64,000 bases of DNA from positions 41,441-105,440 of the forward strand of contig CALTCK010000004.1 of assembly GCA_943842625.1 (NCBI GenBank), in the 5' to 3' direction. The notes below the pieces were generated by a model. The model saw only the letters and a list, made by a program, of their open reading frames with translations. It made no database searches and was not told the origin of the DNA. Shown piece by piece: positions 27,764 to 48,309 of this stretch. This stretch comes from an uncultured Flavobacteriaceae bacterium. Lineage in GTDB: Bacteria; Bacteroidota; Bacteroidia; Flavobacteriales; Flavobacteriaceae. A program made the translations under genes and the position numbers. Numbering within the stretch: position 1 is the stretch's first letter; the number at the start of each line of letters is the position of its first letter.

Positions 27764-28160
27764 GGGGCCGACTGGTTTTGACAGCGGGTCTAATGGTAAG
27801 GTAAGCATGTCGAGCGCTGGGATATAGCTCGTAAATATCATATTTCACACTTTTAAACGGCGAGAATAACTACGCCCTAGCTGCATAATCCGAATTATAG
27901 TAGGATAATGCCTCGGCCCGCAAGGCGGGCAAGCAGGAAGTCTCTCGAGCGCCTTGGTTTACGGCAATCGATATAGAGGCTTCGTAAAAGTAAACCTAGC
28001 AAGTATAGTGCTTTGATGTATTTGCGAAACTCTAATTAAAGATAAGCCACGCGTTGGTCGTTTTCAACCGGCAATTGGTCGAAAATTTAATTGAAAACTA
28101 AACATGAAGAAAGCCCTATTATTGCTTGTTTGGACGGGAGTTCGAATCTCCCCGGCTCCA
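27764..28160 (+). ncRNA. ssrA: transfer-messenger RNA (tmRNA)
   Basis: 5' GGGGCCGACTGGTTTTGACAGCGGG, 3' GGACGGGAGTTCGAATCTCCCCGGCTCCA; tag ORF ggcgagaataactacgccctagctgcataa (GENNYALAA*) at 27859-27888. Confidence 0.97.
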
Positions 28161-28165
28161 CTTTT

Positions 28166-28207
28166 TATTCCTAAGAATAATGTTTTGTTCTTGGGAATAT
28201 TTTTTTC
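28166..28207 (+). terminator. tmRNA terminator
   Basis: attcctaagaataatgttttgttcttgggaatattttttt hairpin plus T-run. Confidence 0.8.
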
Positions 28208-28275
28208 ATAAAAGAGTAAAGTTTTTAAATAAAAGAAATGACTGTCTTCAACTATTGCTCTAAGTTTTTTCTTCA

Positions 28276-29250
28276 TTACTTTACTTTATTAATTAACTCT
28301 ACATATTCAGGATTAAATTTTTTATTTACTTCAAAATAAAATCTTTTGATTTCATCCATTTTTTTCCATTCGCTAACTTGTGCATTCATTTCCTTTGCTA
28401 AATGAATTAAATTAGGGTGATCTTTTTTTCGAATATACTTTTCATCATTTTTTAATAGCTTTAAAATTTCTTTTTCAAAAACTTTAAAATTTCTTTTAAA
28501 ATCATCATTTAAGGCAACCTCAAAAAAACTTCTTGGTATTGAATCACTTTTATATCGATTTAGACTTAGTCCTATTGGCACTAAATTTTCAATAATATTT
28601 CCAGGTCCCCCTGCACTTTTAGGAACGAAATGATCAATATCAATAAGATGCCCGATTGAATAATTTTGATTAAAAAAAGAGTATATTTTTAATCTTAAAT
28701 CACCTGGTATTTTAGGATCCAATTTTTTGACTTGTTTTAAACTGTAATCTGGATTTTCATTTAAGTATTTAACATCTTCATCTTTTAACTCAAAAAATAT
28801 TCTTGCTAAACCACTTTTAACTGAAGCATCATATTTTCTTAATGTACCATTATATGGGATAGTCCTTTTGAGCAACCTCTGTTTTATAAAATATTGATGA
28901 CATTTCAACACATAATTAGAATCAGAAGAGAGCTTATCTTTGAAAAATCTTATTTTCCCTAACCAATAAGAATCATCTTTAAATTGTTTAGAGTAATCCA
29001 ATACTTCTTCTATTGTTTTAAATTCTTTTACCTTAGAACTTTTTATAACTTCCCCTTTTGCATAGATACCACCACTTGTTTCCGCCACATAAATGATATC
29101 TTTATTTACTAATTTTGAAGAAGGAGGGTCCATTTTATCTTTTCTAATTGTAATTTCAAAATACCCTTTTTTATTAGAATTATTTTTTTTTAAATCCCTG
29201 AAAGAATTACTTCTTTTAATAAGGTATGATTTTGGCTTTTCTAATTGCAT
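28276..29250 (-). CDS. EVE/PUA-like N-terminal domain fused to HNH endonuclease
   Basis: NKDIIYVAETSGGIYAKGEVIKS (EVE/PUA-like) and HLIDIDHFVPKSAGGPGNIIENLVPIGLSLNRYKSD (HNH). Confidence 0.7.
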   Translation of the reverse strand: MQLEKPKSYLIKRSNSFRDLKKNNSNKKGYFEITIRKDKMDPPSSKLVNKDIIYVAETSGGIYAKGEVIKSSKVKEFKTIEEVLDYSKQFKDDSYWLGKIRFFKDKLSSDSNYVLKCHQYFIKQRLLKRTIPYNGTLRKYDASVKSGLARIFFELKDEDVKYLNENPDYSLKQVKKLDPKIPGDLRLKIYSFFNQNYSIGHLIDIDHFVPKSAGGPGNIIENLVPIGLSLNRYKSDSIPRSFFEVALNDDFKRNFKVFEKEILKLLKNDEKYIRKKDHPNLIHLAKEMNAQVSEWKKMDEIKRFYFEVNKKFNPEYVELINKVK

Positions 29251-29298
29251 TTTGAATAAAATTAATTTATTTCGAATTTTATATATAATATTTACTAA

Positions 29299-29574
29299 TC
29301 AGAGCCATGCATTATAATCACTTGATTCCATTCCCGGTTTTAACTTATTTTCCCTCGCAAACTCGACATCCTCTTTCATTTGTTTTTTGAATTCGTCAAA
29401 TTCAATAGGGGATTCCAATTCCCATAATTCCGAAGCACAATACAACGCATAAACGTTCTCCCATTCTATTTCATTCCATTCCGATACCTTTTTATTATGG
29501 TAAGCCCAATCTTTATCATTCCATTGTGATGGGTCTGCTGATTTTTTCATGTTATTAAATTTATTTTTTTTCAT
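29299..29574 (-). CDS. hypothetical small protein
   Basis: 91-aa ORF between accessory genes; no recognised motif. Confidence 0.55.
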   Translation of the reverse strand: MKKNKFNNMKKSADPSQWNDKDWAYHNKKVSEWNEIEWENVYALYCASELWELESPIEFDEFKKQMKEDVEFARENKLKPGMESSDYNAWL

Positions 29575-29622
29575 GATAATTTTTTATATTTCGTTATAAG
29601 TTTATTGTACAACATCTGATTT

Positions 29623-30183
29623 TTATGAATAGGGTGAAGGTTGATGAAATTTATCTAACAACTCTAAACAAGTAAGGTTTTCCATTTCAGGAGAATCTGC
29701 AAGTTGATTAAATGCTTTTTCAGATATTAATTTTAAAAACCCTTTCTTATCTGTTAATGGACTTATTTTCTTAATTTTTCTATCCTTATTTGCTATTCCC
29801 TTTGAATGAGATTTAATAATTTTTTTATTATTTATTATTTGAATAAAACATGGCTCCCAATCTATTAAAACAATCTTATCACCTTTAATCATTAAATTTC
29901 TATAGTGTATATCGCCATGAAACATATTTTTAGAGTGTATGTAATCTAGATACTTACCCAACAAATTTAGGTCTGAAATGCAGGTTGGTCTGGTAGATTT
30001 TATATACTCAAATTTTAGTGTAAGATTTTCTGAATCAATATTAAATCCAAATCCAATATCGATATACTTTTTAATTTGACTAAGTCTAAATTCAATTTTT
30101 TGAATTGAACAATCTAATGTAGTTAAAGGATAAATTTTAACAAATGTATTGCCGTCTTTAAACTTTTTAATAGCGGTATTCAA
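29623..30183 (-). CDS. small protein-kinase-like protein
   Basis: Catalytic-loop-like MFHGDIHYRNLMIKGDKIVLIDWEP. Confidence 0.65.
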   Translation of the reverse strand: MNTAIKKFKDGNTFVKIYPLTTLDCSIQKIEFRLSQIKKYIDIGFGFNIDSENLTLKFEYIKSTRPTCISDLNLLGKYLDYIHSKNMFHGDIHYRNLMIKGDKIVLIDWEPCFIQIINNKKIIKSHSKGIANKDRKIKKISPLTDKKGFLKLISEKAFNQLADSPEMENLTCLELLDKFHQPSPYS

Positions 30184-30203
30184 ATTGATATTTATAAATT
30201 AAT

Positions 30204-30788
30204 CTACCAATAGTCTTCCTCAGCAGATTCATAATAATCTGAATTTAAAACAACTCCCTCACGATTGAGTTCAACGGAAAGTGAATAATAGCCCTCATCT
30301 CCATTAATATCAACTTGTCCACATAAAAAACCAACACAACCCTCTTCTTTGGATTCAGAATTAATTAAGTCTATTTTTTCATTCAGTTCTGCAGGAAAAG
30401 AATCTTCAAAGCTTAAATTATATGTTGTAAGTTCATCATATATAGCTAAAATATTATACAAGTCCGTATAAAAATCTTCAGGAAACGGTTCTTGTCCGGT
30501 ACCCCATCCAACTTCCTCATTTTCAGAGTTAAATGCAGCTAAAAATCTACAAATAGCTCTGTCATAATTTGGTTTTCCATCATCTAAAGTAGGAAAATTT
30601 GAAGTGTAAATTTCCACACCATCAGAATCAGCAATTAGATGATTATTTACTAAAAATTTATCTTGAAATAATGATATTATACTTTCCCACTTATTTTCAA
30701 ATTCATTATACAACTTGTCAAAATGTTTATTAGACCCCAAGACCAATTCGTTGCAGTCATGAGAAAGAGAAATAGTCAAATTTGCCAT
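30204..30788 (-). CDS. hypothetical acidic protein
   Basis: 194-aa ORF, no recognised motif. Confidence 0.6.
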   Translation of the reverse strand: MANLTISLSHDCNELVLGSNKHFDKLYNEFENKWESIISLFQDKFLVNNHLIADSDGVEIYTSNFPTLDDGKPNYDRAICRFLAAFNSENEEVGWGTGQEPFPEDFYTDLYNILAIYDELTTYNLSFEDSFPAELNEKIDLINSESKEEGCVGFLCGQVDINGDEGYYSLSVELNREGVVLNSDYYESAEEDYW

Positions 30789-30842
30789 ATTATTAAATTT
30801 TAGATTAAATATATATAAAAAAATTAGACTTTCAAAATAGCT

Positions 30843-30929
30843 AAATCCTCCCCAAAAAAGTTCGACTTCACTCCTCTTGGCTCCACGGCATTATTCCCTA
30901 AAATAAAATTTATTTAGGGAATAATTTTT
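30843..30929 (+). repeat. tmRNA-3'-end-like att repeat, copy 1, with hairpin
   Basis: AAATCCTCCCCAAAAAAGTTCGACTTCACTCCTCTTGGCTCCACGGCATTATTCCCTAAAATAAAATTTATTTAGGGAATAATTTTT. Confidence 0.8.
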
Positions 30930-30980
30930 AAACATTATTTTAAGAAAATTATACTACGGTTTTAGTAAATTTACCGTGCT

Positions 30981-32105
30981 ATGAAATTAAACCTGTCCAC
31001 TGTTGGGATTACATTTACACAATACGTACCCAAACACCAAACACCGTTTGAACGTCTCTTTGAGGTGTTTAAAGAGTTGATTACCCACACGTCTGGCGAT
31101 TTTGACGAAGCGATTGATTGGTTGCGCGAATTAGATATTGAATATGGCTTAACCACCGCAGCATATACGATAGATGATTTTATCGAAGACCTGTTAAAAC
31201 GAGCTTATATACAACCAAAAGGCGATGGTACTGGCGATGGAAAAGGGATGTCCCTCACTGCCAAAACAGAAAAGCTCTTGCGTGAACACGCGCTAAAGCA
31301 AATTTTTGGTAAACTTAAAAAAGCAGGCAACGGCAACCACAAAACCAAAAGTATCGGGCAAGGTGCAGACGAGACTGGCGAATTTAAAGCCTATCAATTT
31401 GGCGATCCACTTGAGAAAATATCCATGACCGAAAGCCTGCGCAATGCACAAATACGCTCTGCAGGAGATGATTTTACATTGCATCAGGACGACCTCGTAG
31501 TGGAGGACAGTTATTACCATACGCAAATGAGTACGGTTTTGATGATTGACATCAGCCATAGTATGATTTTGTATGGCGAAGATCGCATTACCCCGGCTAA
31601 AAAAGTAGCTATGGCACTAGCAGAATTTATCACTACGCGGTACCCAAAAGACACCCTCGACATTTTGGTGTTTGGAAACGATGCCTGGCCAATTGCACTT
31701 AAAGATATTCCATACTTACAAGTAGGGCCTTATCATACCAATACTGTTGCGGGACTTACCTTGGCAATGGATTTGTTACGACGAAGAAAAAACAGTAACA
31801 AACAAATATTTATGATTACGGATGGGAAGCCAAGTTGTTTAAAAAACTCCGATGGCACCTATTACAAAAATAGCAATGGACTAGACGATCATATTGTAGA
31901 TAAGTGTTATAATATGGCACGACAGGCAAGAAAACTTCATATCCCCATCACCACATTTATGATTGCACAGGATCCCTATTTAAAAGAGTTTATTCGGAAT
32001 TTTACGGAAGCCAATAAAGGAAAGGCATTCTTTACAGGATTAAAAGGCTTAGGCGAAATGATTTTTGAAGACTATGAACAGAACAGAAAAAAACGATTGA
32101 AATAA
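30981..32105 (+). CDS. VWA-domain protein (CoxE-like)
   Basis: MSTVLMIDISHSMILYGEDRITPAKKVAMALAEFI; IFMITDGKPSC (MIDAS). Confidence 0.85.
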   Translation: MKLNLSTVGITFTQYVPKHQTPFERLFEVFKELITHTSGDFDEAIDWLRELDIEYGLTTAAYTIDDFIEDLLKRAYIQPKGDGTGDGKGMSLTAKTEKLLREHALKQIFGKLKKAGNGNHKTKSIGQGADETGEFKAYQFGDPLEKISMTESLRNAQIRSAGDDFTLHQDDLVVEDSYYHTQMSTVLMIDISHSMILYGEDRITPAKKVAMALAEFITTRYPKDTLDILVFGNDAWPIALKDIPYLQVGPYHTNTVAGLTLAMDLLRRRKNSNKQIFMITDGKPSCLKNSDGTYYKNSNGLDDHIVDKCYNMARQARKLHIPITTFMIAQDPYLKEFIRNFTEANKGKAFFTGLKGLGEMIFEDYEQNRKKRLK

Positions 32106-33563
32106 ATGAAAAAAAGTACCACACTAGGCGCACTAAAAAAAACGGATTACAAACCGCTTTCTATTCAACAAGAACTGGCACAAAACCTTAGAGCTCGTAT
32201 GCAAAAAGGCCAGCCAACATTTGAAGGTCTTTTGGGCTATGAAAATACGGTTATTCCAGATGTAGAACGGGCATTACTTTCGGGACACAGCATCAACTTA
32301 CTCGGCTTGAGAGGTCAGGCCAAAACAAGATTGGCACGACAGCTTACGCAATTATTAGACGAGTGGGTGCCTGTGGTCGAAGGCTCTGAAATAAACGATG
32401 ACCCCCTAGCTCCCATCAGTAATTTTGCCAAGGCACTTATTGCAGAAAAAGGAGAGGATACCCCCATCACTTGGCTGCATCGAAACGATCGCTTCTTTGA
32501 AAAATTAGCCACACCAGATGTTAGTGTAGCCGATTTGATTGGCGACGTTGATCCCATTAAAGCAGCTAACCTTAAGTTGTCCTATGCCAATGAGAAGGTA
32601 ATTCATTTTGGCATGATTCCAAGAGCACACAGGTGTATATTTGTCTTGAATGAATTGCCTGATTTACAAGCACGAATACAGGTAGCGCTTTTTTCCATTT
32701 TACAAGAAAAGGAAATTCAAATCCGTGGATTCAAACTCCGATTACCCATTGAAACCCAGTTTGTCTTTACGGCCAACCCTGAAGATTACACCAACCGTGG
32801 AAGTATTGTGACCCCATTAAAGGACCGTATTGGTTCTCAAATTTTGACGCACTATCCACACAACTTGGAAACGGCTAAGGCCATAACTCGTCAAGAGACT
32901 CACACCGACGCGGCAGTACAACAGGCTATTCACGTTCCTGAATTGGCACGTGATATTTTGGAACAGATAGGTTTTGAAGCTAGAAAAAGTGAATACGTTG
33001 ATTCCAAAAGTGGCGTAAGTGCACGGATGAGCATTACTGCTTTTGAAAACCTTATGAGTGCTGCTGAACGCCGTATGCTAATGTCTGGCGAGCAAAATAC
33101 CTGCATTAGAATGTCTGACTTTCTGGGAACTATCCCTGCCATCAATGGAAAAGTAGAATTGGTCTATGAAGGCGAACAAGAAGGGGCAGAACAGGTTTCT
33201 TTTCACTTAATCAATCAAGCTGTAAAAACCTTGTTTCCAGCTTATTTTCCAGAAATAAAAAAACTTGAAAAACAAGATGAAGAAGGTCCTTATGACCACT
33301 TATTGGGATGGTTTTACGGCGATAACGAATTGTTTTTGGAAGACAACCTGCCTGACAATGTATATCACGATACCTTAATGAATGTTCCTAACTTGAAAAT
33401 ACTAATAGCAACTCATCAAGCAGATTGTCCCAGGGAAGATCTATTTTTTATGATGGAATTTTTATTGTGGGGACTAGAGGCAAACAAAAAATTAAATAAA
33501 TATAGAACTATGGAAGGCTTTCAGTTTAAAGACGGCCTTGGAAATTTATTGGCAGGAATTTAA
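32106..33563 (+). CDS. MoxR/Mg-chelatase-type AAA+ ATPase
   Basis: SINLLGLRGQAKTRLARQL Walker A variant; HRCIFVLNELPDLQARIQVALFSILQEKEIQIRG; FVFTANPEDYTNRGSIVTPLKDRIG. Confidence 0.85.
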   Translation: MKKSTTLGALKKTDYKPLSIQQELAQNLRARMQKGQPTFEGLLGYENTVIPDVERALLSGHSINLLGLRGQAKTRLARQLTQLLDEWVPVVEGSEINDDPLAPISNFAKALIAEKGEDTPITWLHRNDRFFEKLATPDVSVADLIGDVDPIKAANLKLSYANEKVIHFGMIPRAHRCIFVLNELPDLQARIQVALFSILQEKEIQIRGFKLRLPIETQFVFTANPEDYTNRGSIVTPLKDRIGSQILTHYPHNLETAKAITRQETHTDAAVQQAIHVPELARDILEQIGFEARKSEYVDSKSGVSARMSITAFENLMSAAERRMLMSGEQNTCIRMSDFLGTIPAINGKVELVYEGEQEGAEQVSFHLINQAVKTLFPAYFPEIKKLEKQDEEGPYDHLLGWFYGDNELFLEDNLPDNVYHDTLMNVPNLKILIATHQADCPREDLFFMMEFLLWGLEANKKLNKYRTMEGFQFKDGLGNLLAGI

Positions 33564-33572
33564 ACACCAGTT

Positions 33573-33656
33573 AAATCTTCTGTAAATAATTCGAATTTAC
33601 TCTTCTCTTCTCTACTTTTTACTCACAAGAATATATTTTTATTTTTGGGAATATTT
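33573..33656 (+). repeat. tmRNA-3'-end-like att repeat, copy 2
   Basis: AAATCTTCTGTAAATAATTCGAATTTACTCTTCTCTTCTCTACTTTTTACTCACAAGAATATATTTTTATTTTTGGGAATATTT. Confidence 0.65.
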
Positions 33657-33693
33657 GTTGGATTAAAATAGTATTTTTATAAATAATTAAAAT

Positions 33694-34269
33694 ATGAATA
33701 ATTTAATAATTATAGGGCATCCCGACCAAAACTCTTTTTGTTACAATGGCATCTTTAAAACCATTAAAACAAGTATTGAGTCCAAAGGACAGGAACTAAA
33801 AATTATTGACCTTTACAGTGATAGTTTTACAAGACCTCGTACCAAATTGATCGAAGCTTATAAAGACCTCATAAGTTGGTCAGAAAATATTTTTATCATA
33901 TCCCCCGTATGGTGGTTCAGATTAACACCACGTGCTGAAATATTTTTCGACGAGGTATTTACTCCTGGATTTGCTTATAAATTTGTAAACATAACCAAGC
34001 TTTATGCTTACCCCAAACCATTTTTAAAAAATAAAAAAGTACGGACCTATATCACACACGGTGCGCCTGCACTTCCAGTTCGCACCCTTTATTTAAACTC
34101 TGTAAAATTACGTCTAGTAATGGGTGTTTACACCTTTGTATTTGGCTGGAGACTGTCTTTGTTTCTAAAAACAAACCAGTTTTGGTCCGTTCCCTTTGTT
34201 AGTGATAAAACCAGAGCCAAATACTTAAAGCGCGTGGAACGTAACACCTACAAAGACATTCGAGCCTAA
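33694..34269 (+). CDS. NAD(P)H oxidoreductase, flavodoxin-like fold
   Basis: NLIIIGHPDQNSFCYNGIF; IFIISPVWWFRLTPRAEIFFDEVFTPGFAY. Confidence 0.85.
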   Translation: MNNLIIIGHPDQNSFCYNGIFKTIKTSIESKGQELKIIDLYSDSFTRPRTKLIEAYKDLISWSENIFIISPVWWFRLTPRAEIFFDEVFTPGFAYKFVNITKLYAYPKPFLKNKKVRTYITHGAPALPVRTLYLNSVKLRLVMGVYTFVFGWRLSLFLKTNQFWSVPFVSDKTRAKYLKRVERNTYKDIRA

Positions 34270-34341
34270 AATAGTTCGAATTCACTCCTATGGGCTCCAA
34301 AATTATTCTTGGAAATAATATTTTATTCTTAAAGATAATTT
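34268..34341 (+). repeat. tmRNA-3'-end-like att repeat, copy 3
   Basis: AAAATAGTTCGAATTCACTCCTATGGGCTCCAAAATTATTCTTGGAAATAATATTTTATTCTTAAAGATAATTT; abuts the upstream stop codon. Confidence 0.75.
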
Positions 34342-34448
34342 CAAATGTTTTATAAATATTTCTCAAATAAACAATGTAATGAGATATAAAAAATATTTAC
34401 TACATTTATGTGATGTATTAAATTTGATGTGAAGACTTACATTAATAA

Positions 34449-35183
34449 TTGTTTATGATGTTTCTAGAAAAATTAAGAGCTGTAATAGAAGATACCTCAA
34501 CATTAAAGGGAAAAATATTTGACTATTTTATTCAGGCATTAATTTTGTTGTCACTCTTAGCGTTTACAATTGAGACTTTCCCAGACAACTCTAAAGTTAC
34601 TATTGAGCTACTCAATACTTTTGAATTCTTGTGTGTTATAATATTTTCGATAGAATATTTATTAAGAGTTATTGTTTCAAAAAAACCCTTAAAATACATA
34701 TTTAGCTTTTATGGGGTAATTGATTTTCTTGCTATTTTTCCGTTTTATCTAAAAAGCATATATGATTTAAGAGCACTCAGAGCATTTAGAATCTTTAGAA
34801 TATTTAGAGCTTTAAAATTAATTCGATATAATAGAGCTTTAAATAGATTTAATATTGCTTCAAAAATAGTTAAGGAGGAGCTTATTCTATTTTTAATCCT
34901 AACTAGTATATTTGTGTTTATAGCATCTGCTGGAATTTACTTTTTTGAAAATGAGGCTCAACCTGAAAATTTTAGTTCTGTGATTCATAGTGGCTGGTGG
35001 GCAATTGTTACTTTAACTACAGTTGGTTACGGAGATGTTTATCCAATTACTGTAGGAGGTAAAGTATTTACCACCTTTATTGTTCTAATTGGCGTTGGTA
35101 TTGTCACTATTCCTGCGGGTCTAGTTGCAAGTGCTTTGTCAAAAGCAAGAGAAATTGAAGCTAAAGAAATTAAAAATAAATAA
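34449..35183 (+). CDS. voltage-gated-type K+ channel / ion transporter
   Basis: Six-TM layout; S4-like RALRAFRIFRIFRALKLIR; filter TLTTVGYGDVYP. Confidence 0.92.
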   Translation: MFMMFLEKLRAVIEDTSTLKGKIFDYFIQALILLSLLAFTIETFPDNSKVTIELLNTFEFLCVIIFSIEYLLRVIVSKKPLKYIFSFYGVIDFLAIFPFYLKSIYDLRALRAFRIFRIFRALKLIRYNRALNRFNIASKIVKEELILFLILTSIFVFIASAGIYFFENEAQPENFSSVIHSGWWAIVTLTTVGYGDVYPITVGGKVFTTFIVLIGVGIVTIPAGLVASALSKAREIEAKEIKNK

Positions 35184-35203
35184 TAATTTAAAAACCAAAT
35201 ATT

Positions 35204-35482
35204 ATGAATTTAAAAAATGAAAAAACAGAAATACCCTGTCCAGGAGGAGGGAGAGCTATTAAAACTACTTACGGGGATTTAGCGAGAAAAAGTTCTTTAA
35301 AATCAAGTAAAGGTCATGAATATAAGTTTAAATCAAGTGATCAAAGCAAACTTAAAAGAGCTATGGATAAATTAGAAAGATTACAAAAAGATTTTGAAAG
35401 GGATATGGAAAGAGCACAAAAAGAATTTGGCGAAAGTTTAAATGATGTAATTGGTAATGCTGATTTAGTGCTTAAAAAATAA
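35204..35482 (+). CDS. small hypothetical protein
   Basis: 92 aa; N-terminal EIPCPGGGRAIKTTYGDLARKS, C-terminal coiled-coil; 20 nt after the channel gene, 2 nt before the KAP gene. Confidence 0.7.
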   Translation: MNLKNEKTEIPCPGGGRAIKTTYGDLARKSSLKSSKGHEYKFKSSDQSKLKRAMDKLERLQKDFERDMERAQKEFGESLNDVIGNADLVLKK

Positions 35483-35484
35483 TT

Positions 35485-37476: not shown

Positions 37477-37538
37477 ATGAAAAATACTGCACGTAAACAA
37501 CCTTTTATCTTTGAAGATAACTTCTTGTTATAACATCT

Positions 37539-37625
37539 AAATCTTCCCCGAAATAGTGCGACTTCACTCCTATGGGCTCCAAGCATTATTCTCGATAATA
37601 AAATTTATTTTAGGGAATATTTTTT
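37539..37625 (+). repeat. tmRNA-3'-end-like att repeat, copy 4
   Basis: AAATCTTCCCCGAAATAGTGCGACTTCACTCCTATGGGCTCCAAGCATTATTCTCGATAATAAAATTTATTTTAGGGAATATTTTT. Confidence 0.8.
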
Positions 37626-37688
37626 ACTTTAAAAAATGAAACTATGTTACTTTAATTGATTAATTTCAATAAATTAATTATTATTTAA

Positions 37689-38783: not shown

Positions 38784-38790
38784 TAATTCC

Positions 38791-38838
38791 AAATCCTCCC
38801 AAAAATAGTTCGACTTCACTCCCCTTACTTATTTTTTT
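38791..38838 (+). repeat. tmRNA-3'-end-like att repeat, copy 5 (right half diverged)
   Basis: AAATCCTCCCAAAAATAGTTCGACTTCACTCCCCTTACTTATTTTTTT. Confidence 0.7.
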
Positions 38839-38941
38839 AAATTAATTCTCTTTTTTAAAGGAGTTTCTGGAGTGTCATCCTTTAAAATAAGACCTATTTT
38901 ATGGTTTAAATTCATCACGATTGCGTTTTTTTAAAATTTTA

Positions 38942-41900
38942 TTATTGAATTTGTTCTAGTAATACATCCACTGCTTTTTGTAATTGAGCGTCTTCACCTC
39001 TTGCTACCCAACCTGGTGTATTCTTTATCAAATAGTCAGGTACTGCGGGCGCATCGTTTTCCATATTCAAGCCAGATTTTTTGACATACCAAGCACGAAA
39101 TGGCATGCGGACATAGCCCTTTAATAATCGATAACCTCCTGTAGAGATAACTGCACCAAAAGTAGGCTGACCTACTAATTTACCTAATCCTAAATTTTTA
39201 TAGGCATGTGAAAATATTTCTGCATTAGAGTAACTGTTCTCGTTACACAAAGCCACAGTAGGTTTGGTATTGACTGATAAAATTGCTCGTTCGTTAAAAG
39301 GGTAATTTCCTTGAAACTTTTTATTCTCTTTCTTTAAGTCATTCGCTGCTCCTCTTGGGATGGTATACGCATGTTGATCTACATTCAAAACAGCCATTAA
39401 ACGGTCCGTTGTCCAACCTCCACCATTGTAACGAACATCAATTACAATTCCTTTTTTACCATATCCACTGGCTTTCAACTCGCGTTCAAAACGTTCAAAA
39501 CTTGGAGCATTCATTCCTTGAATATGAATATATCCTAGCTGTCCTTTTGAATATTTTTTTACCAATTCGCTTCTAGATGCTACCCATGCTTCATATTGTA
39601 AAGTTCTTAAGGAACTCGAAGTTCTAATAACAACATCTTTTCCATCACTTTTGGTTAATAACACCTCTTCACCCTTAGAATTTTTTAACAAACTATAAAA
39701 ATTAGTGTTTTTACCTATCGGTTTATTATTAACCGCAGTGATAATATCGCCAACTTTTAAGTTTACTTTTGATGTATTTGCTACTGAATTTTTAAGTACA
39801 TACTCCACTTGAACTCCTTTTGAAATATTCTTCACCTCAACTCCTAACAAACCAATATTATCACTGTTTTTACGTTCAGAAGTTTCTGCTCTATACCCCA
39901 TATGACTCGCATTTAATTGACCTAATAACAAATTATATATAAAACTATAATCTTGTTCTGTGCTCGCTTTTAATACTAATGGTTGGTATTTTTTTATCAA
40001 AGATTCCCAATTGTAGCCATGAAAATTAGGGTCATAGAACCCCATTGTTAAAACACGAGTACCTTCTTGGTAAATCTGTTGATTCATGGCAGTAAAATCT
40101 TCTTTATATTTTGCTACATGAGCTAAAGAGGTAATTTTATCGCCCTCCGGGTTCAATTCTTTTAATTTACCGCCTGAAGTAAAATAAAATTTATCATCAA
40201 TAGCTGCAACTCTTCCTACTTTTGAAGTTCCTTTTATGGCTTTGGGGCTAGTACCGTCTAATTTAACTTTAAAAAAACTTCGGTTATTTGTTGATGGATC
40301 TGTTGCAGAATAATACACATAGTTGCTGTCGGGACCAAACATACCTCCATACTCATCGTCTGGTAATCTAGTTATTCTAGTAAGTCTATCAAAAATTCTT
40401 TCTTTATTGATCGTAACCTTGATCTCCTTCTCTTTCTTATCCTTATCCTTACCCTTGTCAGCTTCTATTTCTGCATAATAGTCTCCATTTTCTCTATCTG
40501 TTTTCGATCGCTCCCAATCCTCTTTTTTTAGCCATACCATCCAAACATCATAATCTATTCCACCTCTGTTTCCACTCCTATTAGAAGAAAATGCTAATTT
40601 TTTACCATCTGGACTCCAAACGGGAGATCTGTCGCTTCTCGGATGCATCGATACGTTAAACTTATCGTTTGGATTAACTACGGATTGAATAAAAATTTCA
40701 CTATCAAAGTCCAAGTCCTCCTGAGAATAAGCAATATACTTGCTGTCTGGACTCCAACTTACATCTTCTGCTTCTGCCCAGCCTGACGAATAAGCTTTGC
40801 TATTGGATATAGCTCCATCCTTTACATCGGCTAACATTAAGCTTCCTCTACCGACTCTATAAGCCAGTTTTTTGTGGTCTGGCGAGACTAAAACATTGTA
40901 AACATCTTCACTACTCTTGGTGAGTTTCGAGATTGAAATCTTTAAACTCCTGTCCAATCCAACCAGGGTATCTTTAGAAACAGCTTTGTATATTTCATTA
41001 TGTCCGTCTCTATCGGAGACAAATAACAACTCTGTATCACTAATCCACTGTGGATTCCTATCTCTATAAGTATGGTTACTTACATTATTGGAGTTTTTTC
41101 TATCCTTATTATTTTGCTTGACAAAAATTTCTCCATTAATTTCAAGAGCCATTAATTTTCCGTTAGGTGAAACATCAAAATCTGAGATATCTGAGGTGGT
41201 AGAAACTTCTTTTTCAGTTTCAAATTTGTAATCTGATTCTATTTTTAAGTTGATCTTCTTAGCTTGTCCATTTTTTAGTTGATATAAATCAAAAAGCGTT
41301 GAGTAGACAATAATTCCTTGATTACTTACAGAAAAAGAAACAACACCATTTTTATTTTGGTTCGTTAATTTTTTGGAAGCTCCCTTTACGGAACCATCCG
41401 TATTTATAGATTGCTGATAAATATTGTAACGACCACTTTTAGCTCCTATGTAATATAAATTACTCGCTGTATCCCACAAAGGTGAATGATCGTTCTTTTC
41501 TGAGTTAGTTACTTGAAAATAAGCCCCTGTTTTAATATTATAAATCCATACATCTCGTTGGGCTGAACCTGAATAATCTTCTCTAGAAATTCTACATGCT
41601 CCTTTTACAAAGGCCACCAAATTTCCGTCAGGAGAAACAGTTGCCATACTACCTAAAGCGGTTATAAATCTTTGCGGAGTACCACCATTGGCATTGACTT
41701 GATAAATTTGCCCATCCCATTCAGGACCTTTTAAAACTCGAGTTGTTGAAAATGTAATATGGTTTGAAGATGTCCAATCGTAGGGAGTATCTCCTGTTGG
41801 ATAATAGGTTAATTGTTTAGGTATTCCTCCATTTTTTTTAATCGTAAAAATATTATTGTTTCCTTTTCTGTTTGAAGAAAAGGCGAGTTGATCTCCGGAA

Positions 41901-42112
41901 GTATTCCACACAGGATTACTCTCATACCCCTCGTGGATGGTTATACGTTTTGTTTGTTGAGTGTTGAAGTTGTAAATCCAAATATCTCCTTGATAAGAAA
42001 AAGCCATTTCTTGGGCATTTGGACTAATTCTAGGCATACGAATCAGAGAATTTTGTGCTGAAAGCAAGCCAGTTATCATCACAAAAATTACGATATACAA
42101 TCTTTTAATCAT
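38942..42112 (-). CDS. tricorn-protease-homologue, WD40/PD40 repeats + PDZ + S41 peptidase
   Basis: IRMPRISPNAQEMAFSYQGDIWIY; WSPDGKKLAFSSNRSG; KGIVIDVRYNGGGWTTDRLM; NENSYSNAEIFSHAYK. Confidence 0.93.
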   Translation of the reverse strand: MIKRLYIVIFVMITGLLSAQNSLIRMPRISPNAQEMAFSYQGDIWIYNFNTQQTKRITIHEGYESNPVWNTSGDQLAFSSNRKGNNNIFTIKKNGGIPKQLTYYPTGDTPYDWTSSNHITFSTTRVLKGPEWDGQIYQVNANGGTPQRFITALGSMATVSPDGNLVAFVKGACRISREDYSGSAQRDVWIYNIKTGAYFQVTNSEKNDHSPLWDTASNLYYIGAKSGRYNIYQQSINTDGSVKGASKKLTNQNKNGVVSFSVSNQGIIVYSTLFDLYQLKNGQAKKINLKIESDYKFETEKEVSTTSDISDFDVSPNGKLMALEINGEIFVKQNNKDRKNSNNVSNHTYRDRNPQWISDTELLFVSDRDGHNEIYKAVSKDTLVGLDRSLKISISKLTKSSEDVYNVLVSPDHKKLAYRVGRGSLMLADVKDGAISNSKAYSSGWAEAEDVSWSPDSKYIAYSQEDLDFDSEIFIQSVVNPNDKFNVSMHPRSDRSPVWSPDGKKLAFSSNRSGNRGGIDYDVWMVWLKKEDWERSKTDRENGDYYAEIEADKGKDKDKKEKEIKVTINKERIFDRLTRITRLPDDEYGGMFGPDSNYVYYSATDPSTNNRSFFKVKLDGTSPKAIKGTSKVGRVAAIDDKFYFTSGGKLKELNPEGDKITSLAHVAKYKEDFTAMNQQIYQEGTRVLTMGFYDPNFHGYNWESLIKKYQPLVLKASTEQDYSFIYNLLLGQLNASHMGYRAETSERKNSDNIGLLGVEVKNISKGVQVEYVLKNSVANTSKVNLKVGDIITAVNNKPIGKNTNFYSLLKNSKGEEVLLTKSDGKDVVIRTSSSLRTLQYEAWVASRSELVKKYSKGQLGYIHIQGMNAPSFERFERELKASGYGKKGIVIDVRYNGGGWTTDRLMAVLNVDQHAYTIPRGAANDLKKENKKFQGNYPFNERAILSVNTKPTVALCNENSYSNAEIFSHAYKNLGLGKLVGQPTFGAVISTGGYRLLKGYVRMPFRAWYVKKSGLNMENDAPAVPDYLIKNTPGWVARGEDAQLQKAVDVLLEQIQ

Positions 42113-42209
42113 GAGTTTTAATTATTTAGTGTTAATTAGGTAAGCTAATTTAAAAAAATAGCTGATCAGTATAAAAAATTTAGTAAAAATATTAGCTATC
42201 TGGTGATAT

Positions 42210-42380
42210 TATTTCTTCAAATTTTACTAAAGTCATCTCCATCTTTTTCTAACTCGATAAGCTTTCCATCTTTTATTAAATAATATTTTGTGTATTCTTT
42301 AGGACAATCATATTGTAGCCCACTGCTGATGAAATATCTAACTGTTCTCCATTATAGTTTATTTTATCTTCAATAAGGCA
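42210..42380 (-). pseudogene. truncated, frameshifted gene remnant
   Basis: Reverse strand reads CLIEDKINYNGEQLDISSAVGYN then, after a frame change, YDCPKEYTKYYLIKDGKLIELEKDGDDFSKI*. Confidence 0.55.
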
Positions 42381-42401
42381 TTATTTTAAAAAAACAACAA
42401 A

Positions 42402-42476
42402 AAAGTATCAAAAAAGACTAAAAATCGACTAAAAATCGACTAAAACACTTAAAAAAGACTAAAAAGTATCGAAAAT
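42402..42476. repeat. short-period degenerate direct repeats (unit about 10-11 nt, AAAAATCGACT-like)
   Basis: aaaagtatcaaaaaagactaaaaatcgactaaaaatcgactaaaacacttaaaaaagactaaaaagtatcgaaaa. Confidence 0.7.
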
Positions 42477-42635
42477 TATGAAAAATCAAATATTTACAAA
42501 TACACTTTTACAATGTTATGTGAGATGAAAAAGAAAATAGTTTTAAATGCTAAACCAGTAAAAGGGGTTAAAGCTTAATCTATATTCATTCTAAAGAGTT
42601 TTAATAATATATTTATAATCTAAACAATAATTATT

Positions 42636-42713
42636 ATGTCAGATAAACCTAAATGCGGATGTGGAAACACTCAAAACCTTGATGGATTTTGTGATGGTTC
42701 TCACAATAAATAA
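42636..42713 (+). CDS. 25-aa CDGSH-type iron-sulfur microprotein
   Basis: MSDKPKCGCGNTQNLDGFCDGSHNK*; too short for the ORF track. Confidence 0.7.
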   Translation: MSDKPKCGCGNTQNLDGFCDGSHNK

Positions 42714-42744
42714 GAAAAATTCTTATACTATAAACAAAAAAATA

Positions 42745-42775
42745 AAGCCACTCTTTTAATTTAGGGTGGTTTTTT
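42745..42775 (+). terminator. intrinsic terminator after CDGSH ORF
   Basis: aagccactcttttaatttagggtggtttttt stem-loop. Confidence 0.65.
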
Positions 42776-42847
42776 ATGTAGAAAATACTTCAGAGGAGAA
42801 GCTATAATACTTTAATTGATTAATTTTAGTAAATTATTATTCAACAA

Positions 42848-43213
42848 ATGGAACTAAATATTTTCGGAAATCCTTTGATTCCTTGCTGTACAAATCCTGC
42901 TACTGGTTATTTTAGAGATGGTTTTTGTAGAACAATTTCTGAAGATACTGGAACACATACTGTTTGCGCCATTGTTACACAAGAATTCTTAAACTATTCT
43001 GCCTCAAGAGGAAATGATTTAATGACTCCTATTCCACGGTGGAATTTTCCAGGACTACAAGCTGGTTCTTCTTGGTGTTTGTGTATTTCTCGCTGGTTAG
43101 AAGCAGAAAAAGCGGGCAAAGCGCCTCCTATTGTTTTGAAAGCGACTCATCAAAAAACCTTGCAATACACTTCATTGGAATTGTTAGAAAAATATGCAGT
43201 CATAACTGAATAG
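42848..43213 (+). CDS. DUF2237 family protein
   Basis: NIFGNPLIPCCTNPATGYFRDGFCRT; RWNFPGLQAGSSWCLCISRWLEA. Confidence 0.88.
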   Translation: MELNIFGNPLIPCCTNPATGYFRDGFCRTISEDTGTHTVCAIVTQEFLNYSASRGNDLMTPIPRWNFPGLQAGSSWCLCISRWLEAEKAGKAPPIVLKATHQKTLQYTSLELLEKYAVITE

Positions 43214-43328
43214 AGTTATTGTAAAGTGAAATTTAATTTTCATACTATCCATGTATTGTACTAATTTTATTTTTTTTACTAAAAAATTAAATTAATTTCG
43301 TAGAACAACTATTTTAAAAATAAAAAAA

Positions 43329-43838
43329 ATGAAAAAATTACTTAGTATTTTATTGGTATCTATTTTTATGTCATGTTCTCAAGGAGGACATCCGGACTTT
43401 GCAAAAAATACAGCCACTGCAAAAAAAATGTTAGAACTTCAGGGATCTGAAGCAGATTTTCAAGCACAACTTGACCTAATTCATCAAGATGTTAAATGGC
43501 AACCTGTATTTTTTGGAGCTACCGAAATTGGAAAAGAAGAATTTGGTCAGTATTTAAAAGCATGGCAAGATGAAATGGAAGATGTGGTTTACACTGCAGA
43601 CAACTGGTTACCTGGAGTATTGGCAGAGACTGGAATGGCTGACGGGAGTGTTAGATCTTACGGAACTTGGTCTGGAACTCATACAAAGACAGGTAAAAAA
43701 TGGGAAGTAAAAGCATACCATACCTGGGATTTTAAAGATGGACAAATTATAACTGGAGGTGATTATTTTGATGCTACAGGTCTTGTTAACTTTCTTGAAG
43801 AGGAAGAAACCCAAGAAGAGGTAGAGATGACTAAATAA
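43329..43838 (+). CDS. SnoaL/NTF2-like lipoprotein
   Basis: LVSIFMSCSQGG lipobox; KAYHTWDFKDGQIITGGDYFD. Confidence 0.7.
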   Translation: MKKLLSILLVSIFMSCSQGGHPDFAKNTATAKKMLELQGSEADFQAQLDLIHQDVKWQPVFFGATEIGKEEFGQYLKAWQDEMEDVVYTADNWLPGVLAETGMADGSVRSYGTWSGTHTKTGKKWEVKAYHTWDFKDGQIITGGDYFDATGLVNFLEEEETQEEVEMTK

Positions 43839-43867
43839 GCTACCAGAGTTTTTAGCTCTTATACATA

Positions 43868-43893
43868 CCCTACCAATTTTGGTAGGGTTTTTT
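43868..43893 (+). terminator. intrinsic terminator
   Basis: ccctaccaattttggtagggtttttt. Confidence 0.85.
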
Positions 43894-44036
43894 AAATTAA
43901 AATATTTCAGAAAAATTATAATTTGATAGGACAGTTAAACATATACTTACGAGCCAAGTTTTTAAATTTACGACAATGTTTTTATTCTAGACAAAAGGAA
44001 GTCCTAGTCCTACGGTGTGCTTTTAAAATAACATAA

Positions 44037-46289
44037 ATGGAACGATTAAGAAAAATCATAGCGATGATTATCAAATTCAGAATAGCAATTATGGCTGTTT
44101 TGGCAGTTGCTATGGGCTTATCCGGATATCATACGGTAACTAAATTAAGCGTTGACAATTCGCTAGGCATTTGGTTTTTGGAAGATGATCCAAGCTATCG
44201 TGCATATATCGATTATCAGCAAAATTTCGGTTCCGATGAAATTTTTATTGCGATGTTACCGGTAGAAAATGCCATTGGTGAAACAGAAGTTTTATCATTA
44301 AAAGAGTTACACCAACGAATTGAAGCATTACCTTATGTACAAACATCGTATAGTTTAGCTAAAGCTAAGTATCCCACCTATGCAAATAAGACCCTTAATT
44401 TTGATGACTTGTATAATTCAAAACGAAGTGAAAAAGGGCTAAAAAGTCTGTTCTCAAAATTACCAAATATCACTTCTCAATTAGTTACCAAAGATTATAA
44501 AAATCAGTTTTTTTATATTCAACTTAACCCAACATCAACAGTAGAAGAAGAGCGACAAGTTATTGCTGAAGAAATAAGAACAGTGATTCAAACCCTTTAT
44601 GAGCATCACTATCTAACTGGACCTCCAGTTTTAAATGAGGCATATAGCAAAGGAATTTATAAGGAGAGTTTAATCTTTGGAGTGTTAACGATAGTGGTGA
44701 TCACCATAATGCTACTGTTTTTATTGCCCAGTAAGCGCTATTTAATCATTTCCTTATTATCTGTTGCGATCCCCATAAGTTTACTTTTTGGGCTAATTAC
44801 CTCACTAGGCTTTGCACTGAATATGATATCAATGCTTATTCCAACAATCCTAATGGTGTATAGCGTTAGCGATGCTGTACACATTATAAATATTTACCAT
44901 AAAGAGGGATTGGCAAACGTTACATTGGCTAAAGTTGACTTATTAGCAGTCGCTATCCGTAAAAGTATAACACCGTGCTTTTATACAACTCTTACCACAT
45001 TTGTTGGTTACTTTGCTTTGTATTTATCACCATTACCTGCTTTCAAAAACATGGGAGTTTTTACTTGTATAGGTTTAGTCATAAGCTTTATTCTTGTTTA
45101 TATTATTACCATCATTGGATTCAGTTATATGAATTTAAATTTTGAGAAAGCAAAGCCCTTACTGAGCTTAAAACGTTGGAATCAACGAGCATTTATTCAC
45201 TGGTTAAATCGAATTACTTGGGATTATAAGCGTACCATAATTGTTGGCTTTACCGCTATTTTAATAATTGGTTTTTATGCTATTTTTCAAATTAAAATAG
45301 ATACAAATTCTCGTAATCTTTTAGCTGAAGGAAAGGCAAAGCAAGATTTACGGGCTGTAGAGTTAGAACTCGGAGGAAGTAACCGTTTACAAATAAACAT
45401 TTCTACGTCTAACGGTGATGTTATTTTGAATAAAGAAGCGCTAAAATGCCTAGAGAAATTTCAAAAAAAATTAGAACTCAATACATTTATTTCTAATCCT
45501 GTTTCAGTGGTTAATATCAAACAGTTTCTTGAAAAACGTACTCCCGTTTTATTTCCATCGAATGTATCTGAAGAGGAGTTGAAAAGTACACTTTCTGGAG
45601 TTGATGTAAAGGACAATAGTTTTTTTAAATTGTTCTCCGAAGATTTGACGACCGCAGGGTTTACCTTAACACTCATGGAAGGTCGTACATCACAACTCAA
45701 TCAAGTATTGGATGATGTAAAAATAGCTTTTGAATCTTCTTTTGATACGAATGATTACAAACTCAAGATTAATGGATTTGCTGTCGTTTTTGCTCAGTTA
45801 AATAGTTTTATTCTAGAAACTCAATTCAAATCCTTTTTTGCAGCCTTTTTTGTGGCTTTTATGTGCTTACTAATTTTTATAAAAAACCTACGTACTACCA
45901 TTTTGGTCTTGATTCCTAACTTATTACCGCTAACAATTTTAGCGATATTGATGACCCTTTTAGACATCCCGCTTGATGTTACAACAGCAATGATTACCCC
46001 GATTATGTTAGGGATTGCGATGGATGATACCATTCATTTGGTTTATAAATACAGAAAAAGCAACCAAGTTCAGGGATCAGCTGAAGAGCGTATGAATAGC
46101 GCGATGCACTATACAGGAGGTGCTTTATTTTCAACTACAATTGCACTGGTTGCTGGCTTTTTAATTATAGCCTCGAGCGCTGTACCTTCAGTCAGAGATT
46201 TTGGATTGCTTTGTGCGGTGACAGTAGCGATTGCTTTGATTACAGATATCTTTTATTTACCTGCTTTATTAAAGAAGTTTGACAACTAA
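44037..46289 (+). CDS. RND/MMPL family transporter
   Basis: 12-TM layout with two large loops; MISMLIPTILMVYSVSDAVHIIN; ITPIMLGIAMDDTIHLVYKYRK. Confidence 0.9.
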   Translation: MERLRKIIAMIIKFRIAIMAVLAVAMGLSGYHTVTKLSVDNSLGIWFLEDDPSYRAYIDYQQNFGSDEIFIAMLPVENAIGETEVLSLKELHQRIEALPYVQTSYSLAKAKYPTYANKTLNFDDLYNSKRSEKGLKSLFSKLPNITSQLVTKDYKNQFFYIQLNPTSTVEEERQVIAEEIRTVIQTLYEHHYLTGPPVLNEAYSKGIYKESLIFGVLTIVVITIMLLFLLPSKRYLIISLLSVAIPISLLFGLITSLGFALNMISMLIPTILMVYSVSDAVHIINIYHKEGLANVTLAKVDLLAVAIRKSITPCFYTTLTTFVGYFALYLSPLPAFKNMGVFTCIGLVISFILVYIITIIGFSYMNLNFEKAKPLLSLKRWNQRAFIHWLNRITWDYKRTIIVGFTAILIIGFYAIFQIKIDTNSRNLLAEGKAKQDLRAVELELGGSNRLQINISTSNGDVILNKEALKCLEKFQKKLELNTFISNPVSVVNIKQFLEKRTPVLFPSNVSEEELKSTLSGVDVKDNSFFKLFSEDLTTAGFTLTLMEGRTSQLNQVLDDVKIAFESSFDTNDYKLKINGFAVVFAQLNSFILETQFKSFFAAFFVAFMCLLIFIKNLRTTILVLIPNLLPLTILAILMTLLDIPLDVTTAMITPIMLGIAMDDTIHLVYKYRKSNQVQGSAEERMNSAMHYTGGALFSTTIALVAGFLIIASSAVPSVRDFGLLCAVTVAIALITDIFYLPALLKKFDN

Positions 46290-46317
46290 TTTATTTAATT
46301 ACCTTAAAAAAAACTAA

Positions 46318-47055
46318 ATGATTCAAAAAATTAAATTACTGGTAGTAGTATTATTACTATTAACTTTCAATGCTTGCAATCAAGACGATGATTCTAGTTC
46401 TAATTCACAAAGCCCCTCTATAAATAAAATACTAGCTCTAGGAGCATCAAGAGTAGAAGGGTCTAGACCTGAATTTGAAAGCTATAGATATGAACTCTGG
46501 AAAGACTTAAAAGAAAATAATTGGATGTTTGATTTTATTGGAACTCAAACTGACGAATCTTCTTATCCAACATTTAATAATATGAATTTTGATGGAGACC
46601 ACGAAGGTAGAGGTGGTTGGACCTCTGGTGAAATACTAAATGGCCTTAGTGGTTGGTTAAATCAAACGGGGTCTGCTGATATTGTTTTACTAAGTTCGCC
46701 AGGGGGTAATGACGCACTTGAAGGATTACCCTATTCACAAGCAGTATCAAACATCAATTACATAATTGATGTTCTTCAAGCCGACAATCCTAGTATCACA
46801 ATTATTCTTGAGCAGATGGCTCCTGGTAGAAGTGATATAATGACTTCAGAATTAACTGAGTTTTTTACACAAATGCAGCAAGAAGTTTTAAATATTGCAG
46901 CTAATAAAACAACGACTACTTCTTCTGTAATGGCAGTGGATATGTTTACAGGATTTAATGACGATTTGTTAGCTGATGACGTACATTACAATGAAGCAGG
47001 TGCTGTATTTATTGCCAATAGATATTATACCATTCTTATAAATGTGTTGGAATAA
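46318..47055 (+). CDS. SGNH/GDSL-like hydrolase lipoprotein
   Basis: FNACNQDDD lipobox; ILALGASRVEGSRP; LLSSPGGNDALEG; DDVHYNEAGA. Confidence 0.8.
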   Translation: MIQKIKLLVVVLLLLTFNACNQDDDSSSNSQSPSINKILALGASRVEGSRPEFESYRYELWKDLKENNWMFDFIGTQTDESSYPTFNNMNFDGDHEGRGGWTSGEILNGLSGWLNQTGSADIVLLSSPGGNDALEGLPYSQAVSNINYIIDVLQADNPSITIILEQMAPGRSDIMTSELTEFFTQMQQEVLNIAANKTTTTSSVMAVDMFTGFNDDLLADDVHYNEAGAVFIANRYYTILINVLE

Positions 47056-47099
47056 AAAAAAGAGGTTATATCTTATCTAATAATTTACAGAGTGAGATC

Positions 47100-47189
47100 A
47101 AATCTTCCCCAAAATAGTGTGACTTCACTCTCCTCTGCTCCACTTTTTATTTCTAAGAATAAAAAATTATTCTTAGAAATATGTTTTTT
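47100..47189 (+). repeat. tmRNA-3'-end-like att repeat, copy 6, with hairpin
   Basis: AAATCTTCCCCAAAATAGTGTGACTTCACTCTCCTCTGCTCCACTTTTTATTTCTAAGAATAAAAAATTATTCTTAGAAATATGTTTTTT. Confidence 0.8.
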
Positions 47190-47221
47190 GAGTATTTTAG
47201 ATTCATAAAAACAAATATATT

Positions 47222-47773
47222 ATGGCACAAATTAAAGGAATAAAAGAAATAATGATTTGCACTTATGATTTGGAAAAAGAAGATCTAGCCAAATTGACAT
47301 CAATAAAATTAAAAGAATTAATTAATAATAAATTACAAGAAAGTTCTCAATTACTTTATGTTTATGATGAATATGGTTTCGATACTGATTCTGCCCTTAG
47401 TATTGAGGTTTGTTATGAAGAAATTGATTCTACCCCAGTCGTACAAGAAGGAATGGTGAGATTAGTTTTTTGGCAAGAATTAGAACAGTGCAATGTAAAT
47501 GCTGATCTAAATGAATTAAGTGGAAATGTAACATTGAATCTCAAGGGAAATACATATGGTTGTATGTCCGATTGGGGCTATCAGTCATTTGAATTTATAA
47601 CTTCTAATGATGGCACAGAATTATTTTTGGAATCCGAGTCTTATGGAGATGAAAATAAAACTATCTATTTCTTAAATTCAAAAAAGGAATGTGCATATTC
47701 AATAAACGATATTGATAATAACATAACATTTGATGAGGAATTTGAAGAAATGAAAAAGGATTATTGCAATTGA
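47222..47773 (+). CDS. hypothetical protein
   Basis: 183-aa ORF; no recognised motif. Confidence 0.6.
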   Translation: MAQIKGIKEIMICTYDLEKEDLAKLTSIKLKELINNKLQESSQLLYVYDEYGFDTDSALSIEVCYEEIDSTPVVQEGMVRLVFWQELEQCNVNADLNELSGNVTLNLKGNTYGCMSDWGYQSFEFITSNDGTELFLESESYGDENKTIYFLNSKKECAYSINDIDNNITFDEEFEEMKKDYCN

Positions 47774-47898
47774 TTCAATGTTTAAAATTGTTTAAGTAAA
47801 AATTAAATTTTAAAATAATAAAACAGTTTGCACAAAAGATGCAAAAATTATAATTGACGAGGAAAAGACATCAGAAAATTTCTTAAAATAATAACATT

Positions 47899-48177
47899 AT
47901 GAAAAAATTTAGTAAAATAATTCCTGAAGTTGATACAAAAATAATTAGTATAGATTACATAAATCTTAATGGCACAGATTCTAGACACGAGGTCTGGAGT
48001 TGGGATGGAATTATGGGTGAATCTTTAATTTTTTGTAAAAAAGACTTTAAAAATCCAGAAAGTGAAGTTTTGAGTGTGGTAGAAAATTATATTAAGGAAA
48101 AATTTAGTGAAAAAAAACATACCATTAAGATTAAAGGTGATTTTGTTTTTTTTAATTACAATTTTAAAATATTATAA
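47899..48177 (+). CDS. hypothetical protein
   Basis: 92-aa ORF; no recognised motif. Confidence 0.5.
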   Translation: MKKFSKIIPEVDTKIISIDYINLNGTDSRHEVWSWDGIMGESLIFCKKDFKNPESEVLSVVENYIKEKFSEKKHTIKIKGDFVFFNYNFKIL

Positions 48178-48224
48178 ATAAACGTGAAAGTTAAACAACT
48201 TAGAGTGTTCGATTCGTGCTATAT

Positions 48225-48283
48225 CCGAAATGTAGCTGTATAAAGTTTGTTACTGCTACTGGTTCGAAATCCTCCGGCTCCCA
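48225..48283 (+). repeat. decayed tmRNA 3'-end-like sequence, copy 7
   Basis: CCGAAATGTAGCTGTATAAAGTTTGTTACTGCTACTGGTTCGAAATCCTCCGGCTCCCA, compare tmRNA GTTCGAATCTCCCCGGCTCCA. Confidence 0.6.
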
Positions 48284-48309
48284 CTTTGTAATTTTTTAGG
48301 TAAATGAGT

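Follow-up and report, generated by a model that had tools for sequence, protein, structure and literature searches.

The subject of this analysis is the region downstream of ssrA, the gene for transfer-messenger RNA (tmRNA), in a stretch of 64,000 nucleotides (the window) from an uncultured marine Flavobacteriaceae bacterium (assembly GCA_943842625.1, contig CALTCK010000004.1, positions 41,441 to 105,440, forward strand). A 43-bp repeat recurs there and bounds cassettes of accessory genes. I put the probability at roughly 0.8 that integration by a large serine recombinase (LSR) built this region, as a hotspot for insertion at the ssrA 3' end. The sequences common to different genera suggest that bacteria trade small accessory cassettes across genus lines at this one site.

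The 43-bp repeat and its distribution

The repeat has the consensus AAATCCTCCCCAAAATAGTTCGACTTCACTCCYNTNGGCTCCA, ending in CTCCA. Six copies lie in the window between 30.8 and 47.1 kb, all in the orientation of ssrA, which bears out the recurrence in tmRNA orientation described by an earlier reading of this DNA (the original prediction). Six of the sites listed there hold, one of them partial (38.79 kb) and one degraded (33.57 kb), while the site at 48.26 kb is an ssrA 3'-end relic and no copy of the repeat. An 18-mer core, with up to three mismatches allowed, matches five times in the window, as compared to 0.04 times expected from shuffled sequences. A calibrated motif model run over the 1.94-Mb assembly finds five copies, every one in the ssrA array and on a single strand, so the outcome of an ordinary repeat scattered throughout the genome did not occur. 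Each copy is followed by a hairpin resembling an intrinsic terminator, but these hairpins belong to several unrelated sequence families and are not the one shared terminator that had been proposed. Besides ssrA, no other RNA family was found in the window array.

The strict repeat pattern has no match in 18 other genomes of the genus; diverged copies are present in a sister species (G014). Applied to 398 Flavobacteriaceae genomes, the calibrated model finds the repeat in 17 genomes from 12 genera, mostly members with small genomes, and the maximum is 16 copies. Copies within any one array have the same orientation. In one genome that consists of a single 2.7-Mb contig (G142), every repeat found is on the ssrA strand, at most 59 kb downstream of the gene. 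A second insertion site is seen in two genomes (G061 and G379), where arrays also stand downstream of tRNA-Ala(GGC) (L246 6414-6488; L250 11079-11153). The 3' end of this tRNA gene, GTTCGA-N10-CTCCAC, is like that of ssrA, and the gene is followed by the same family of terminator, of the CTTTTTATTCC type, that follows ssrA in the window. Because of these two genomes, and a third (G287) with repeat copies at several loci, ssrA is, on the sequence evidence, not the sole insertion site of the element family. The earlier claim that tmRNA is the attachment site therefore stands for the LSR elements at ssrA described below, but not as an exclusive one. A 16-mer, AGTTCGACTTCACTCC, gave nine matches in viral contigs; these were judged to be chance, there being no similarity around the motif.

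Recombinase and attachment site

The recombinase encoded at ssrA in relatives is an LSR, not the tyrosine recombinase that had been anticipated. It carries the domains PF00239, PF07508 and PF13408 (Resolvase, Recombinase and zinc-ribbon), and about 16 named loci, from Polaribacter, Winogradskyella and uncultured Flavobacteriaceae, have its gene convergent with ssrA and overlapping it at the 3' end. In a scan of named genomes nearly all close homologues had this convergent and overlapping arrangement. Polaribacter and Winogradskyella isolates with the element belong to the lineages of NZ_JAHEHX010000021 and NZ_QPHL01000008. Conserved proteins of about 300 and 165 amino acids, neither with a Pfam match, are encoded after the LSR gene. 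The best NCBIfam match of the enzyme is CcrB of the staphylococcal cassette chromosome (SCC), at 110 bits against an equivalog cut-off of 900, and it also resembles the integrase of A118. The occurrence of LSR and repeat was compared in 16 genomes, some of whose LSR copies are fragments: all 14 with an LSR at least 85% identical have the repeat and neither of the two with an LSR about 50% identical does, as compared to 17 of 398 in the sampled family genomes. In G287 a full LSR of 528 amino acids (L124 12936-14522) abuts ssrA, and three repeats in ssrA orientation lie about 10 kb away. A search of viral contigs with the LSR protein found no relative, and phage and plasmid collections gave only matches below 60% identity, the best about 25%. 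An LSR 34% identical lies about 0.5 kb from ssrA in Chitinophaga pinensis (L187), and the LSR clade may use ssrA widely across Bacteroidota.

The right arm of the LSR elements, CTCCAC(C/T)A.ACGGGACAAACTCA.., is constant beside ssrA genes of differing T-stems and acceptor ends (GGCGTCTCCAC, CCGACTCCAC). Since these parts of ssrA remain species-specific next to the constant arm, the crossover is placed at CTCCAC, and a crossover inside the T-loop (TTCGA), also considered, is excluded for the same reason. Elements without an LSR have right arms that include the types CTTTTTATTCCC.. and CGGCATTATTCCC...

Polaribacter Ww478 provides both ends of one element. The interval of ssrA, LSR, cargo and repeat measures 14.3 kb (L283 1513-15931). 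The gene that stands 33 bp beyond the repeat is found in three genomes that lack the element, at 0.7-1.3 kb from ssrA on its downstream side, and the bases directly after the repeat (CTCCACAACTTTAAACCC...) are similar to the terminators native to ssrA in Polaribacter. (Empty ssrA sites of Polaribacter, looked for with a strict pattern, gave no match; it was the comparison of flanks that succeeded.) It follows from this comparison that attL consists of ssrA and an element arm and attR of the 43-bp repeat and the native arm, with CTCCAC as core. Sequence alone shows that relatives have an LSR at ssrA, that the repeat forms the element's far end, what the core is, and that in this one Polaribacter the native flank is displaced. 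Cargo of the Ww478 element includes restriction genes of McrBC and N6-methylase type, and an HD-domain gene lies immediately inside attR. A fragment of a similar HD gene precedes a repeat in G287 (L058 8465-8761).

What the repeat represents is suggested by the motifs it has in common with ssrA. There are only two, GTTCGA and CTCCA, separated by 10 nt in ssrA and by 15 nt at 60 of 74 repeat sites, so the right half of the repeat is not the tmRNA T-arm and acceptor end that it had been taken for. According to Rutherford et al. (PMC3783163), serine integrases recognize an identical zinc-ribbon (ZD) motif in both attachment sites, 5 bp farther from the center in attP than in attB. The predicted offset is matched here, GTTCGA standing 10 nt from CTCCA in ssrA and tRNA-Ala and 15 nt from it in the repeat. 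Because the offset fits this rule, the repeat is best read as a P half-site, the half of attP recognized by the LSR, in which TTCGA would be the recombinase motif and not a displaced T-arm; the likeness to a T-arm would arise from use of a common 7-bp motif at a distance that differs by 5 bp. The fit is strong, short of biochemical proof. In G287 a second, broken LSR gene (L058 4442-5457) has its C-terminus read through a 43-bp repeat, that is, it lies on the P-arm side.

The proposed mechanism is as follows. A circular element would carry an attP made up of the P arm (the 43-bp repeat), the core CTCCAC and a P' arm (an intrinsic terminator), and the LSR would join it to an attB at the end of ssrA (GTTCGA-N10-CTCCAC). 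After insertion the sequence of ssrA would be intact and its terminator supplied by the element, whose far end, the P arm, would be followed by the terminator that earlier stood after ssrA. Serial insertion would produce ssrA-[P'..cargo..P][P'..cargo..P]..., in which the most recent cassette adjoins ssrA. The many cassettes without a recombinase, which include all those in the window, probably use the LSR of another element or else are remnants after LSR loss, and tolerance of different right half-sites would let attL act again as a target. Catalysis by the LSR, its supply in trans and its permissiveness toward the right half-site are what I infer. The LSR element of G287 lies between ssrA and three tandem units of about 100 bp, each a P arm and a terminator, and therefore was inserted into an already occupied end. 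The LSR element at ssrA in G287 (L124 5261-9822) carries three sulfatase-like genes, plausibly a cargo for polysaccharide degradation.

Cassettes in the window and their sharing between genomes

In the window ssrA (27764..28161, + strand, like all the cassettes and repeats below) ends with the putative left half of attB, GTTCGA at 28140 and CTCCAC at 28156-28161. The newest cassette begins, on its left or P' side, with the junction core and a non-native terminator hairpin, CTTTTTATTCCTAAGAATAATGTTTTGTTCTTGGGAATATTTTTTT (28156..28206, +), and the predicted hairpin now acts as terminator of ssrA. In four other members of the genus the ssrA terminator is common to the four and different from that of the window; the type native to the genus (ACGCCCTC), looked for in displaced form, was not found within the window.

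Cassette M1 (28162..30886) has four uncharacterized open reading frames (ORFs), all on the minus strand, and ends with repeat copy 1 (30843..30885). M2 (30887..33616), with copy 2 (33573..33615, degraded), encodes a VWA-domain protein and a MoxR-like AAA ATPase; this pair, at 30981-33563, is followed on the right by a repeat of its own. M3 (33617..34300), with copy 3 (34257..34299, its left 8 bp diverged), encodes a flavodoxin-fold NAD(P)H oxidoreductase. M4 (34301..37582), with copy 4 (37539..37581), carries an ion channel, a small ORF and a KAP P-loop NTPase (35485-37476); PADLOC matches the last to PifA, QatA and PDC-S20, and an anti-phage function is possible. M5 (37583..38826) encodes a beta-lactamase-fold serine hydrolase, and its copy 5 (38791..38826) is truncated to positions 1-36 of 43 with loss of the core end, identically in G014. 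Interval M6 (38827..47143), with copy 6 (47100..47142), contains a tricorn-like protease (minus strand), DUF2237 and SnoaL proteins, an MMPL transporter and a GDSL lipase. M7 (47144..48284), with two uncharacterized ORFs, ends in the ssrA 3'-end relic (48262..48284, +). The relic reads GTTCGA-N10-CTCC, with the 10-nt spacing and flanks of ssrA and without the AAATC...AAATAG half, so that it is distinct from the P repeats, and its alignment to the ssrA 3' end outscores 300 shuffles. It is probably the displaced end of an older element. The variable region probably reaches past 48.28 kb, to about 50.1 kb, since an ORF at 48870-50039 (389 amino acids, no Pfam match) has an 80% identical counterpart in G287, a different genus, where a repeat lies about 1.6 kb away.

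The window and G014 are about 97% identical in the parts they have in common. M1 is first in the window and last in G014, where 28236-29701 is matched at 91% identity in the part of the array most distant from ssrA, and the best inference from this sequence is that the same cassette was acquired twice, separately. Segment 44017-47144 stops exactly at repeat copy 6 in both genomes, followed by M7 in the window and by M1 in G014. M4 and M7 are missing from G014, only the 3' end of M5 is present, M6 is broken by 4 kb of other DNA, and the array holds further DNA of other kinds. Several modules have been gained or lost between the two at or near repeats. Modules are not fixed between the sister species, and with several boundaries at repeats this polymorphism supports what had been proposed, serial site-specific insertions of integrase-less modules at the ssrA 3' end.

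Cassettes are also shared between genera, at identities above the baseline set by the core gene beside ssrA (64-69%) and by ssrA itself (70-73%). The right end of M1 (30578-30929) is 91.5% identical in another genus (G061). M2, the most widely shared cassette, recurs in two other genera, in three genomes altogether, with 85-91.5% nucleotide identity, and M3 with 90.4% in G061 and 75.7% in G065. Reshuffling and cross-genus sharing are in this sense direct readings of the aligned genomes.

Several observations weigh against integration by an LSR as the source of the array. No match to PF07508 was found anywhere in the host assembly (84% complete), and no LSR in G014, so that mobilization in trans is only inferred; nor was an excised circle seen. 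The right arms (P') belong to several unrelated families, and a single LSR might need a conserved P' half-site. The repeat measures 43 bp, as compared to 25 bp for the half-site of the A118 integrase, and the 12 bp left of the expected half-site are also conserved, without explanation. Where the window and G014 diverge, some of the boundaries fall off the repeats (33788/38603, 38855, 43951), and therefore ordinary deletion and rearrangement also act. Finally, of 208 ends of cross-genus homology (which are not independent and include core regions), 39 lie no more than 100 bp from a repeat, as compared to 5% at random, a 3.7-fold enrichment and not a rule.

Alternative explanations and known systems

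The rival that survives best, unlikely as I judge it, is that the array is dead: each interval was once a complete LSR element whose recombinase has been deleted, and movement now occurs only via homologous recombination in the flanking sequence or natural transformation. The absence of an LSR from the host and G014, the variable degradation of the repeats and the junctions that miss them all fit such remnants. Tandem 101-bp units, consisting of P arm and terminator with no cargo, occur in at least four genera, however, and whole cassettes with their own repeat recur in other genera beside different neighbors. Both fit mobile integrase-free units better than they fit independent deletions.

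It is far less probable, and largely excluded, that tycheposon-like elements with tyrosine recombinases left displaced tmRNA 3' ends at the junctions. The ends of tmRNA genes are classic targets of tyrosine integrases (PMC4383910), and the relic at 48262-48284, which has true ssrA spacing, may stem from an older element of this type. But the repeat is no tmRNA end, the enzyme at ssrA is an LSR, and a search of the host assembly for tyrosine recombinases found only two PF00589 genes (304 and 329 amino acids, Xer-like in size), both outside the window, which as predicted has no integrase. Two other genomes (G216 and G185) likewise have two of Xer length, and no dedicated tyrosine integrase common to the repeat-bearing genomes was found. 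An ordinary dispersed family of repeats or terminators, akin to repetitive extragenic palindromes and with no role in integration, is scarcely credible: hairpins do follow every copy and some relatives (G287) have copies at several loci, but host copies lie only downstream of ssrA on one strand, as in G142, the terminators vary where the 43 bp are constant, and the repeat ends a mapped LSR element whose attL, attR and flank in Polaribacter contradict the idea.

Integration at ssrA by an LSR is a kind of system already known. The closest precedent is the ssrA islands of Dehalococcoides, which are in tandem, with a serine recombinase (DsiB) overlapping attL and about half of the islands without the integration module (McMurdie 2011, PMC3146451). 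The conserved module there is DsiB-DsiA-RecF-ParB-Mom (PMC3146451). Common to the two systems are tandem, same-orientation islands downstream of ssrA, many without an integrase (as in the window, G014, G142 and G287), a reverse-strand CcrB-family serine recombinase overlapping attL, and cargo that varies between strains. The boundary here, in contrast, is a 43-bp P half-site, sharing with ssrA a 7-bp motif at +5 bp and a 6-bp core, and not a duplicate of ssrA. Also particular to the present system are the empty units of 101 bp, the second site at tRNA-Ala(GGC), the cassettes found across genera and a host assembly free of the recombinase. No companion small recombinase like DsiA was seen here, with no direct comparison to DsiA or the other members of that module made. 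A search of the open-access literature found no description of such elements in Flavobacteriaceae.

SCC and SCCmec elements (CcrAB, CcrC; inserted at rlmH) have a related recombinase and, like those described here, occupy a conserved gene at its 3' end. Among them, as here, are tandem composites and members without a recombinase (ccr-less pseudo-SCC). They differ from the present elements, which target ssrA or tRNA-Ala, use a single LSR, occur in Bacteroidota and form far smaller cassettes, each restoring the terminator of an RNA gene. Tycheposons use tyrosine recombinases at tRNA genes (PMC10872708). Like the present elements they bring cargo to RNA genes in streamlined marine bacteria, but the enzyme here is an LSR. 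With integrons the likeness is by analogy only: small cassettes, ordered and in one orientation, carry a single conserved site apiece and are rearranged from species to species, but with no IntI seen (the host's two PF00589 genes being of Xer length), an apparently different site structure and probable serine in place of tyrosine chemistry. I offer with some doubt a stronger version of the analogy, that this system is for serine recombinases what the integron is for tyrosine recombinases. Marine Flavobacteriaceae of different genera would take up and exchange integrase-free cassettes, some no larger than the 101 bp of a P half-site and an RNA-gene terminator, through an LSR provided in trans. 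Identity as attP or attB would rest with the left half-site alone, so that occupied ssrA and tRNA-Ala ends would remain targets and arrays would keep growing.

The LSR and its sites are candidates for genome engineering in Bacteroidota. They also form a natural set of attB and attP sites with the predicted 5-bp offset and unrelated right half-sites, by which the stacking of arrays by an LSR becomes testable. For the bacteria themselves, the array is a candidate route by which streamlined marine flavobacteria exchange small accessory blocks between genera, at one address and without integrases of their own.

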